DNA of 64,000 bases from Armatimonadota bacterium (GTDB taxonomy: Bacteria; Armatimonadota; Fimbriimonadia; Fimbriimonadales; Fimbriimonadaceae), in assembly GCA_016223145.1 (NCBI GenBank), contig JACRPN010000004.1, positions 1 to 64,000 on the forward strand. Reading direction: 5' to 3'. The notes beneath the pieces are model-generated. The model did no database searches, was not told where the DNA came from, and worked only from the letters and a program-made list of their open reading frames with translations. Numbering within the stretch: position 1 is the first letter of the stretch; each line of letters opens with the position of its first letter. The position numbers were made by a program, and so were the translations under genes. Below, piece by piece: positions 1-24,883 of the stretch.

Positions 1-23
1 CGGGCATTTCTTGGGAGTGTGGA

Positions 24-83
24 GGGATGGGGGGGCGGAGGTGTGGAGGGATGGAGGGGCGGAATGGTGGAGGGGTGGAAGAT
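24..83. repeat. Left arm of inverted repeat around S23-like gene
   Basis: G-rich low-complexity DNA built on a tgtggaggg/atggagggg unit. Its inner end (about 59-83) is complementary, with about 4 mismatches in 25, to the C-rich block at 579-613. The two arms enclose the four-helix-bundle gene at 102-494, so the whole unit (24-613) can fold into a long stem with the gene in the loop. Confidence 0.7.
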
Positions 84-101: not shown

Positions 102-494
102 CTAGTTCCTTTTGGTAGCGGGACCGCACCAGGAGGATGGCGACGACATCATTTTGACAAGGCTGCCAGATATCTTCTTAAGCTCCGATTCGAGAAGGTC
201 AAATTCCGCTGGAGTAATGTAGCCACATGCCATTGCGAAATCAATCCACGAACGAGATTCGTGGCATTCCGCGTCAGCATCTGAAAGTTTGGCGACGAAG
301 TGAGCCTCATAGCGTCGTTTGCCCCACGCTTCAGCGATGTTCGCCGCGATCGAACGCGTGGCACGCCTGCTCTGAGAAGTGAGACTCCGTTCCTCGCTCT
401 TGGGCCAATCTCTGGATAGCTCAAAGACGCGCATCGCAACTGCGAACGCATCCTGATAGCACCTAAGTTCCTTGAAGTCCTTGACTAGTGGCAT
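102..494 (-). CDS. Four helix bundle protein (23S rRNA intervening-sequence S23-like)
   Basis: A 130-residue protein of the S23 / 23S rRNA-IVP four-helix-bundle family, recognised from the N-terminal pattern VKDFKELRCYQDAF, the central SRRATRSIAANIAEAWGKR and the following KLSDADAE helix. Family members were first found in intervening sequences of 23S rRNA genes; their molecular role is not settled. The start at 494 (MPLVKDF) is preferred because the family motif begins at residue 3; an in-frame ATG 21 codons upstream only adds an arginine- and cysteine-rich shadow. The gene is enclosed by inverted low-complexity repeats (24-83 and 579-613) with no rRNA nearby. A second copy, broken by a nonsense codon, lies at 24374-24742 in the same kind of setting. 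Family assignment is secure; function is unknown. Confidence 0.88.
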   Translation of the reverse strand: MPLVKDFKELRCYQDAFAVAMRVFELSRDWPKSEERSLTSQSRRATRSIAANIAEAWGKRRYEAHFVAKLSDADAECHESRSWIDFAMACGYITPAEFDLLESELKKISGSLVKMMSSPSSWCGPATKRN

Positions 495-578
495 GTTGCT
501 CCAACTACAGGTTCGTCTGGAACGCGGATCCTCCTGTTCATCGCATCCGTGCAACAATATCGATCGGGTTCACCTTCC

Positions 579-613
579 ATACTTCCACCCCTCCACACCT
601 CCACCCATCTCCC
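579..613. repeat. Right arm of inverted repeat around S23-like gene
   Basis: C-rich block reading cttccacccctccacacc and onward. Its reverse complement matches the G-rich block ending at 83. It lies just upstream of the promoter of the glycosyltransferase gene. Confidence 0.7.
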
Positions 614-1333: not shown

Positions 1334-2439
1334 TGCAAGACGCCATTCGCCAAACGATCGAGGAACAAGAGCGCCGGGCGCTCTCGCCTTTTGCGCAGTT
1401 ATCCTCAGAATCGGCAGGACGGGAGCGAGAAGAGCCACAAGACCCCATCCGCACCTGCTACATGCGCGACCGCGATCGCATCCTGCATTCCAAGTCCTTC
1501 CGCCGCCTGAAGCACAAGACGCAGGTATTCATCGACCCCCAGGGCGACCATTACCGAACGCGACTGACGCACACGCTCGAAGTCGCCCAAATCGCGCGGA
1601 CCATCTCTCGTGCGCTTCGGCTCAATGAGGACCTCACCGAGGCGATCGCGCTTGGCCACGACGTCGGGCACACCCCTTTCGGCCACGCCGGCGAGTCGGC
1701 GCTTGATGAGGTGCTGGGAGCGATGAGCGCAGGGACAGAGGGACAATGGGGCCAAGGGACATCCGGACCACCCCAGGCCACTCCGTCCCTCCGTCCCTCC
1801 GTCCCTTCGTCCCTTTCTCCGACCGTCCCTTCCTCCTTTCGCCATTACGAACAGTCCCTTCGCGTTCTCGACGTCCTTGAGAATCTCAATTTGAGCCAGG
1901 AGGTGCGCCAGGGCGTCGGCGGGCACAGCAAGGGGCGAAAGGACCTAACGGATGCCGATGGGGAGCCCACCAGCACGCTCGAGGCCGCGGTCGTGCGCAT
2001 CAGCGACCGCATCGCCTACATGAACCACGACCTCGACGACGCCGTGCGCTCGGGGATCATCTCGGAAATCCCGGCGCGGTTCCAGGCGCTGGGGCCGACG
2101 CAAGGCAAGCGAATCGGCGCGATGGTCGAGGACGTGGTGACGAACAGCCTCGAGCGTCCTGCCGTGGTGCTGTCGCCAGCCATGCTCACGGCGATGAACG
2201 ACCTCAAAGAGTGGCTGTTCCTGAACGTCTACGAGCAGTACCCCGTGGTGTATCCGGACATCGCCAAGGCCAAGCGAATGGTGAAGGACCTGTTCGCGCA
2301 CTTCTTGGAGCCAGGAAACCTCCCCGAGGGCTATCAGGGCATCCAGGGGGCTGTCGACTATGTGGCCGGCATGACCGACCGTTTCGCCATCGATACCTAC
2401 GTTGCGCTGAACATCCCCAGCGAGTTCCGAGTGCTGTGA
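1333..2439 (+). CDS. Deoxyguanosinetriphosphate triphosphohydrolase-like HD protein
   Basis: A 368-residue HD-superfamily hydrolase of the dGTPase-like group, expected to convert dGTP (or other dNTPs) to the nucleoside and tripolyphosphate. Diagnostic segments are SFRRLKHKTQVF, RLTHTLEVAQIAR (first metal His) and ALGHDVGHTPFGHAGE (the HD pair), then FRHYEQSLRVLDVLE and ISDRIAYMNHDLDDA. The start at 1333 overlaps the upstream TGA by one base (TGATG). Odd feature: between GHAGESALDEVL and FRHYEQSL, where relatives have a short link, there are about 38 low-complexity residues (about 130-168; Gly/Gln then Pro/Ser rich) encoded by agggac and gtccct repeats (about 1725-1839). The frame stays open, so this looks like a tolerated insertion. 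Confidence 0.9.
   Translation: MQDAIRQTIEEQERRALSPFAQLSSESAGREREEPQDPIRTCYMRDRDRILHSKSFRRLKHKTQVFIDPQGDHYRTRLTHTLEVAQIARTISRALRLNEDLTEAIALGHDVGHTPFGHAGESALDEVLGAMSAGTEGQWGQGTSGPPQATPSLRPSVPSSLSPTVPSSFRHYEQSLRVLDVLENLNLSQEVRQGVGGHSKGRKDLTDADGEPTSTLEAAVVRISDRIAYMNHDLDDAVRSGIISEIPARFQALGPTQGKRIGAMVEDVVTNSLERPAVVLSPAMLTAMNDLKEWLFLNVYEQYPVVYPDIAKAKRMVKDLFAHFLEPGNLPEGYQGIQGAVDYVAGMTDRFAIDTYVALNIPSEFRVL
1725..1839. repeat. In-frame low-complexity hairpin insertion in the dGTPase-like gene
   Basis: The left half carries agggac units (1731-1760) and the right half carries four or more gtccct units (about 1784-1834), giving an imperfect inverted repeat inside a coding sequence. Reading frame is preserved. 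The composition resembles the arms around the S23-like genes but uses a different repeat unit. Confidence 0.65.
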
Positions 2440-20582: not shown

Positions 20583-20672
20583 CTTGATGCCTCCGCCTCT
20601 TCCGAGGTGGAGGCTTAGAACTTGAAGAGCCGCTGTCGAAGCCTCCACCTCGGAAGAGGCGGAGGCATCAAG
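20583..20672. repeat. Perfect 34-bp inverted repeat
   Basis: Arms 20583-20616 and 20639-20672 are exact reverse complements with a 22-nt spacer. Each arm also folds on itself (cctccgcctc-ttcc-gaggtggagg, one mismatch), so the unit is two head-to-head REP-like hairpins. It separates the tRNA genes from the HAD gene and may act as a bidirectional terminator or be a mobile repeat pair. Confidence 0.9.
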
Positions 20673-24318: not shown

Positions 24319-24352
24319 GAGTGAAGAGAAAAGGAGATGAAGCGATGAGGAG
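24319..24352. repeat. Left arm of inverted repeat around second S23-like gene
   Basis: Purine-rich block agtgaagagaaaaggagatg and onward to gatgaggag. Over 33 nt it is complementary, with 6 mismatches, to 24851-24883. Confidence 0.75.
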
Positions 24353-24373
24353 ATTTCGCTGCGGCGAAGTCTT

Positions 24374-24742
24374 TCATCTTGTCCAGTCCTCTGCCCGTTT
24401 GGCCATCAGCACGAGCGCCCCGATTAGGCCCTCATATCGTTCGATCATAGCGTTGCTCTGCTCAGCACCCATGTATCCGCACGCCTCAGCGTGCTCAAGC
24501 CAAGACTGGGTCTCAGCCGCCTCGGCTTCCGCTTCATTGAGTTTGCTTACGAAGGCAGCCTGGTAGCGTCTCTTCCTCCATGCCTCGGCGATTGCCGCAG
24601 TTACAGACCTCGAAGATCTCCTCACTTGATCTGTAAGTGAATATCGCTATTCCGGCGGAAATAGCTTTGTGGCCCCGAAGATCACGGACGCGAGTTTGAA
24701 CGCTTCTTGATAGACTCGAAGATCGCGATGGCTCTTGACCAA
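24374..24742 (-). pseudogene. S23-like four helix bundle gene with in-frame stop
   Basis: Two reading-frame pieces in the same frame add up to one S23-like protein. The N-terminal part (LVKSHRDLRVYQEAFKLASV) ends at FPPE followed by TAG (24647-24649). Right after the stop the family sequence continues as RYSLTDQVRRSSRSVTAAIAEAW and KRRYQAAFVSKLNEAEAEAAE. The expected codon is GAG (Glu), so one G-to-T change made the stop. A TTG at 24742 is the likely original start, matching the MPLVKD start of the intact copy at 102-494. The gene sits inside an inverted repeat. Readthrough cannot be excluded, but decay is the simpler view. Confidence 0.85.
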
Positions 24743-24850
24743 GCCTCCTTCCTTAACTTCGAGCACTTCTGTCGCGAGAGCACTCCGTCCAGGTTCAGAT
24801 TCGAATAACCCGTAGGACGCCCGTCGTTCTCCCGCTCTCAAGTCCGATCG

Positions 24851-24883
24851 CTCCTCATCCCTTCATCACTTCATCCCTTCACT
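24851..24883. repeat. Right arm of inverted repeat around second S23-like gene
   Basis: Pyrimidine-rich block ctcctcatcccttcatcact and onward, with a repeated ttcatc unit. It pairs with 24319-24352. Confidence 0.75.

Follow-up and report, generated by a model that had tools for sequence, protein, structure and literature searches.

An element at positions 24319-24883 of a 64,000-nt stretch of an Armatimonadota genome (contig JACRPN010000004.1, hereafter the window) raises the question of why two inverted arms match each other within one element when the words that they repeat differ from those of the next. Both this element and another at the start of the window enclose a gene of the S23 family (PF05635) and, as the initial annotation had noticed, their arms agree within each element but are built on different words (GATGAAGR vs GGAGGTGT). 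That annotation took the arms to be renewed locally in each copy. Our analysis points to a different answer, to which we assign a probability of about 0.6: the element would be a decayed copy of a cassette made of an S23 gene and its word, with cognate repeats dispersed in the genome and a behavior similar to that of RAYT (REP-associated tyrosine transposase) genes and their REPINs, the S23 protein recognizing the word. S23 genes are paired with cognate words, the words are dispersed, the cassettes are inserted between genes, and gene and arms change in concert.

An S23 gene remnant between inverted arms

The inverted 33-nt arms with 6 mismatches described by the initial annotation were recovered by repeat search (27/33 positions paired, 82%, with a spacing of 498 nt), and the parts of the element are the following:

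24319-24883, minus strand: S23 element, gene remnant enclosed by inverted word arms (repeat search and profile match)
24320-24352, plus strand: downstream arm of the gene, made of GATGAAGR in four 8-nt units, G-rich strand on plus (repeat search; relatives dispersed in the genome)
24851-24883, minus strand: arm upstream of the gene, word GATGAAGR, G-rich strand on minus (repeat search)
24374-24742, minus strand: S23 (PF05635/TIGR02436) coding remnant, decayed (profile match; coordinates read from the sequence)

With at most one mismatch, GATGAAGNGATGA was found three times in the window (0.39 expected), exclusively within these two arms. The minus strand between them codes for an S23/23S_rRNA_IVP protein (93.3 bits, against a PF05635 cut-off of 33.8). 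This copy is a decayed member of the family: its frame is interrupted by a single TAG (24647-24649), the Asn that is invariant in the family motif has become Ala, and there is no ATG start.

Two familiar identities were rejected for this element. It is not an rRNA intervening sequence (IVS), as it lies outside any 16S or 23S rRNA gene: no rRNA match was found in the 64-kb window, which contains only two tRNAs, and the element is located between protein-coding open reading frames (ORFs). It is not a classical insertion sequence or transposon either, since no transposase is encoded between the arms and the words differ among copies, with no common terminal repeat. The flanks of the element were not found in two congeners, and no empty site could be read there.

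Inverted arms surround S23 genes across phyla

The source genome (G000, 3.87 Mb, 97% complete; its genome-wide counts come from searches and from 264 kb of samples) contains 13 PF05635 loci. At nearly all of them, the gene lies between inverted arms in which a degenerate word of 7-10 nt, private to the locus, is repeated in tandem (GCGAGAR, GGTGAGAAT, GGGCGAA, GGAGGTGT, GATGAAGR, CGGAGAAA, AGGGACCA, GATTTGA, GAGGTCC, GGATTTC, GGACGGGCAT, TATAGGTCC, and GGACGGGTC). An arm score of at least 34 was reached by 11 of the 13 loci and by none of the 518 unrelated ORFs of 300-700 nt that were taken as a control from the 264 kb of the same genome.

The same pattern recurs around S23 genes in 30 relatives. 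The match between the two arms exceeded the 99th percentile of cross-element pairs at 17 of 28 loci, mostly from other families of the same phylum, and at 51 of 80 named loci covering more than 20 phyla, where 0.8 would be expected by chance. The neighboring genes were co-directional on both sides at 77 of 145 S23 loci, a count considered as a sign of insertion at the RNA level but made without a proper baseline. A distinct S23-like subfamily with the motif QNIAEGS, below the Pfam cut-off and with words of 9-10 nt, was also encountered (L019, L020, L021, and relatives); some of its copies adjoin groEL or uvrB. Separately, five S23 genes are present in a 2.3-Mb genome (G328; L292, L314-L317), and the words of at least four of these clearly differ.

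Words are inherited with S23 lineages and occur dispersed

An S23 gene and its word form a cognate pair that is inherited together until about 65% protein identity. In comparisons among 128 elements, the proportion of pairs that had a word in common was 0-1% below 55% S23 protein identity, 5% at 55-65%, 54% at 65-80%, and 91% above 80% (Mantel test of gene-word co-inheritance, 0/999). By comparison, diverged S23 genes (<45% identity) residing in one genome never shared a word (0/70 pairs). This runs counter to the proposal of the initial annotation that the arms are renewed locally rather than inherited, as does a fixed locus, described below, at which word and gene changed together.

In the Lysobacteraceae (NCBI taxonomy; the family of Luteimonas), three S23 types are paired with three words. 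Among 79 genomes of this family, a three-unit GKGAWTS pattern gave 12-630 matches in all 18 genomes with an S23 gene of the IAEGAARRS type, where only 9 of the 61 genomes without this type had at least 10 matches, with a maximum of 93 (18/18 vs 9/61, p=1.7e-11). These matches overlap, and the numbers of arrays are therefore smaller than the match counts. A second word of the family follows the second S23 type (p=0.001). One genome, G334 (L322, L323), has 93 matches to the GGGATTC-type pattern and no detected S23 gene, which might reflect a recent loss.

Away from S23 genes, the words are scattered in solo arrays and hairpins, for the most part in genomes with the matching gene. The arms of the element at 24319-24883 match about 20 further places in the source genome, many of them without S23, as short-loop hairpins and arrays. 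In the 264 kb of this genome, 39 non-S23 matches were obtained from 12 of its own arms vs 7 from 26 foreign arms, and a search of the 12 arms in 580 kb from five other genomes gave no match. Similarly, the words of G014 match G014 alone among the sampled genomes. Solo arrays numbered 31 in the 264 kb of the source genome and 6 in 100 kb of G014, and none were found in the samples of G001, G007, G009, and G012.

Insertion and concerted exchange at fixed sites

Both the cassettes and the solo hairpins occur as intergenic insertions, and their exchange at fixed sites changes the two arms jointly. The atpA-atpH spacer of the source genome contains an S23 gene with arms (L010), whereas in the relatives in which this spacer was readable it held neither word nor hairpin. 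The groES-groEL spacer contains S23 genes with differing words in six genomes; a single ancestral insertion was rejected for these, as the protein tree cannot be reconciled with fewer than two changes and suggests four to five. The same spacer in G004 (L110) has word-like inverted remnants and no S23 gene, perhaps a cassette minus its gene.

The gene of the IAEGAARRS type occupies one locus in about 19 species, between accB- and accC-like genes (read from the sequence), and has a median dN/dS of 0.17, indicating purifying selection. Each of its arms consists of about four units, and the variants in one arm correlate with those in the other (rho 0.86 and 0.75). Placed on the S23 gene tree, the word variant needs 4 changes, a number as low in 0/200 shuffles, and so fits this tree; it does not fit the tree of the neighboring DNA (as low in 148/200 shuffles). 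Between G352 and G300, the flanks of this locus are 98-99% identical, the S23 genes are 75% identical, and both arms are switched; gene and arms were therefore exchanged together, as a cassette.

A solo hairpin in the groES-groEL spacer is present in G300 and absent from the orthologous site of G337. Both of its arms read GGGATT in G300 and G311 and GGGAAT in G352 and G358, and between G300 and G352 the flanks are 97-99% identical and the loop is changed. In G352, the word of this hairpin agrees with the genome's own S23 allele, whereas in G358 it does not. More broadly, and with few arrays per genome, the dispersed arrays match the local S23 word in G319, G362, G314, G300, and mostly in G352, but not in G295 and G358. 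The within-element co-variation proposed as a check in the initial annotation is thus present both across phyla and at single orthologous sites (groES-groEL and the accB/accC locus).

Several observations weigh against the cassette reading. The comparison of Lysobacteraceae species is uncorrected for phylogeny, and cognate arrays (up to 93 matches) occur in genomes without a detected S23 gene of the corresponding type. G001 and G012 have S23 genes with arms but no sampled dispersed copies, and dispersal is therefore not obligatory. The arrays or hairpins of G358 and G295 carry a variant unlike their S23 arms. Finally, no target-site duplication was demonstrated, the spacers differing too much at empty sites to define the ends.

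A first alternative, which we consider unlikely, is that the word hairpins are independent elements and that S23 genes insert into their loops as they do in rRNA IVSs, the protein being irrelevant to the words. The scarcity of S23 genes relative to solo hairpins, the location of rRNA intervening sequences in rRNA hairpins (PMC4990558), and the presence at groES-groEL of an S23 element in one phylum and of solo hairpins in another are all consistent with such passengers. However, the words track the S23 lineage and not the host, since diverged S23 genes of the same genome share none and close S23 genes of different genomes do; array abundance tracks the S23 type; and the atp site of the examined relatives has no hairpin.

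It also seems quite improbable that S23 is a nucleic acid-binding regulator with autoregulatory arms, its dispersed arrays being a regulon held by selection and not by mobility. A regulator would be in keeping with the purifying selection on S23 and with its vertical retention, in about 19 species, at the accB/accC locus, and also with the Xanthomonas arrays, which are intergenic, mostly transcribed (PMC4692102), and in 83% of cases keep their context. A regulon would not be expected to lack its solo hairpins at the orthologous sites of a close relative, nor to swap both word and loop of hairpins at fixed sites. In addition, in the pooled arm statistics, drawn from 87 strong elements, the arm-arm mismatches showed none of the wobble bias expected for selected RNA stems (126 wobble-keeping vs 146 breaking, p=0.25). 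Selection on an RNA stem therefore does not account for the match between arms, and an RNase III-processed stem was rejected as its cause on the same ground.

How the arms are built

In the 87 strong elements, the word period was 7 in 58 (those with 14 counted in), 8 in 16, 9 in 6, and 10 in 2. The upstream arm contained more G than C in 81 elements and not in 6, so that the G-rich strands point inward; no directional drift of G content along the arms was found. In many cases, the arm is a defined module that has fixed ends and contains about four quasi-repeats; such modules include ones of 33 nt and of 28 nt, and pairs of arms with 4+4 units. The GATGAAG family, to which the element at 24319-24883 belongs, is a fixed-end 33-mer that reads AGTGAAGR-GATGAAGR-GATGAAGR-GATGAGGRG in its matches.

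Within one element, the two arms behave like independent draws from a single word profile and not like mirror copies. The order of word variants was mirror-like at p<0.05 in only 4 of 55 elements, a test of low power where the words barely vary. The idea of the initial annotation, that every copy rebuilds its own arms by snap-back copying or strand slippage, is very improbable as a whole. Its observation of co-variation stands, including at orthologous sites, and the orthologous S23 elements of the congeners G001 and G002 do gain, lose, or exchange whole words in slippage-like steps. Snap-back copying does not agree with the unmirrored variants, free slippage does not agree with the fixed ends of the 33-nt and 28-nt modules, and non-inheritance does not agree with words common to related S23 genes of other species. 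The words are also common to solo copies elsewhere in the genome, against local rebuilding. Simple tandem-repeat slippage alone, as in simple sequence repeats or short tandemly repeated repetitive (STRR) sequences, was likewise rejected, being countered by the inverted pairing, the fixed modules, and the gene-specific words.

Some long solo arrays of the source genome (L068:14990-15078, L062:16340-16404, L066:9645-9685) shift gradually from unit to unit, as in the series GGCATTAA -> GGCGTTAA -> GGCGCTAG, and some switch word midway. These graded arrays look as though each unit had been copied from the preceding one. That the words are written by a diversity-generating retroelement (DGR)-like or telomerase-like enzyme aided by an Avd-like S23 is hardly credible, for while S23 is homologous to Avd (PMC10053308), gives weak Avd profile matches here, and has polar tandem words reminiscent of telomeric repeats, a search of the source genome, whose completeness is 97%, found no RVT_1 domain despite its dense arrays and 13 S23 loci, and thus no DGR is indicated.

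A possible mechanism and its implications

In the cassette reading, the mobile unit would consist of a gene for an S23 four-helix bundle and, on either side of it, an inverted module of about four 7-10-nt units with the G-rich strand inward. The S23 protein, a homopentamer in the solved structure (XCC0516 of Xanthomonas campestris, 2gsc; PMC4990558), may recognize its own word as DNA, RNA, or a single-stranded hairpin. Word-bearing hairpins might then be spread by host replication or repair enzymes with the help of S23; host enzymes are invoked because S23 has no recognizable transposase, nuclease, or polymerase domain. As with RAYTs and REPINs, a single gene would serve many small non-autonomous hairpins that bear its end sequence. 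The agreement of the two arms would come from the fit of both, by selection or copying, to one protein, and not from fold-back copying of one from the other.

Somewhat short of even odds, we tentatively extend this to the family: S23 proteins could be the specificity factors of widespread minimal mobile systems, in which a non-enzymatic four-helix protein and a private tandem word spread hairpins and, upon a change of protein allele, rewrite the hairpins of fixed sites. If so, this class would account for the heptads of Xanthomonas, perhaps for those of Nostoc and Beggiatoa, and for the function of the orphan S23 family. S23/IVP proteins are common "four helix bundle proteins" without a known role, and GGGAATC-like heptads have long been known without a partner. 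Their cognate pairing opens both to experiment as one system of specificity, between protein and DNA or protein and RNA, that has diversified into many words and offers many natural pairs. A literature search that left aside subscription journals and preprints found no link between S23/PF05635 and flanking or dispersed repeats.

Other word-bearing features of the window

The first element of the window spans about 14-606 and, unlike that at 24319-24883, uses the word GGAGGTGT. The S23 proteins of the window also match the TIGR02436 profile beside PF05635, and Avd matches are weak. Solo arrays are found further on:

14-80, plus strand: downstream arm of the first element, GGAGGTGT-like word of 8 nt (arm reading)
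102-494, minus strand: S23 gene of the first element, intact, coding for 130 aa that match PF05635 at 99.3 bits and bAvd weakly (profile match)
567-606, minus strand: upstream arm of the first element, GGAGGTGT-like word (arm reading)
1775-1821, minus strand: solo array of AGGGACGA, which is also the word of S23 element L015 elsewhere in the genome
34626-34693, minus strand: solo array of GGTGAGAC/GGTGAGTC words, resembling the arms of L014
36715-36752, plus strand: solo array of GGGTGTA-like heptads

The window also contains, at 20583-20672, a near-perfect 37-nt inverted repeat with a 16-nt loop, adjoining two tRNA genes; it is not of the word type.

Comparison with known systems

The foldback (FB) elements of Drosophila likewise have a central segment enclosed by inverted arms, which are made of short, degenerate repeats in tandem. 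FB copies share a single repeat sequence, whereas each S23 lineage has its own word. The IVSs of 23S rRNA with an S23 ORF, as in Leptospira and Coxiella (PMC4990558), involve the same family and an ORF placed within complementary sequences; here, however, the S23 genes lie between protein-coding genes, and their arms are made of tandem words shared with dispersed copies. S23 genes have also been noted within cas operons, e.g., between cmr3 and cmr2 (PMC3936711). Avd of the DGRs has a homologous four-helix-bundle fold (PMC10053308), but the source genome has no reverse transcriptase.

The GGGAATC heptads of Xanthomonas, which were described without a gene partner, prefer four units, and form 70 convergent inverted pairs (PMC4692102), resemble the arms in being intergenic 7-nt words of about four units, as do those of Nostoc, and GGGATTC/GGGAATC words of this type are S23 arms in the Lysobacteraceae studied here. 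G-quadruplexes were proposed for the GGGNATC and GGGGAYT heptads of Xanthomonas and Nostoc, respectively (PMC4692102), but many S23 words are without the G-runs that these need. The TAACTGA heptads reported in Beggiatoaceae (PMC4679880) and the cyanobacterial STRR sequences, compared by description only, are likewise dispersed between genes with a patchy distribution; they are mostly direct repeats, however, with no reported S23 link.

The closest likeness in behavior is to RAYT genes, which have flanking inverted repeats, coevolve with them, and are tracked by their abundance, and which encode a transposase (PMC2817692). In the S23 system too, inverted copies of a dispersed repeat flank the gene, the repeats are scattered as small hairpins, their abundance tracks the gene, and the two coevolve. 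The proteins differ, S23 being a four-helix bundle (PF05635) and RAYT an HUH/Y1 transposase, and so do the repeats, REP (repetitive extragenic palindromic) sequences being palindromes, where S23 repeats are about four tandem 7-10-nt words, of which there are many across phyla. S23 proteins match PF05635/TIGR02436 only, and Avd weakly, and have no HUH (Y1) domain; they are therefore not members of the RAYT/REPIN system and are similar to it in behavior only. Gene-repeat coevolution of the RAYT/REPIN type would then have been reached with an unrelated, non-transposase protein.
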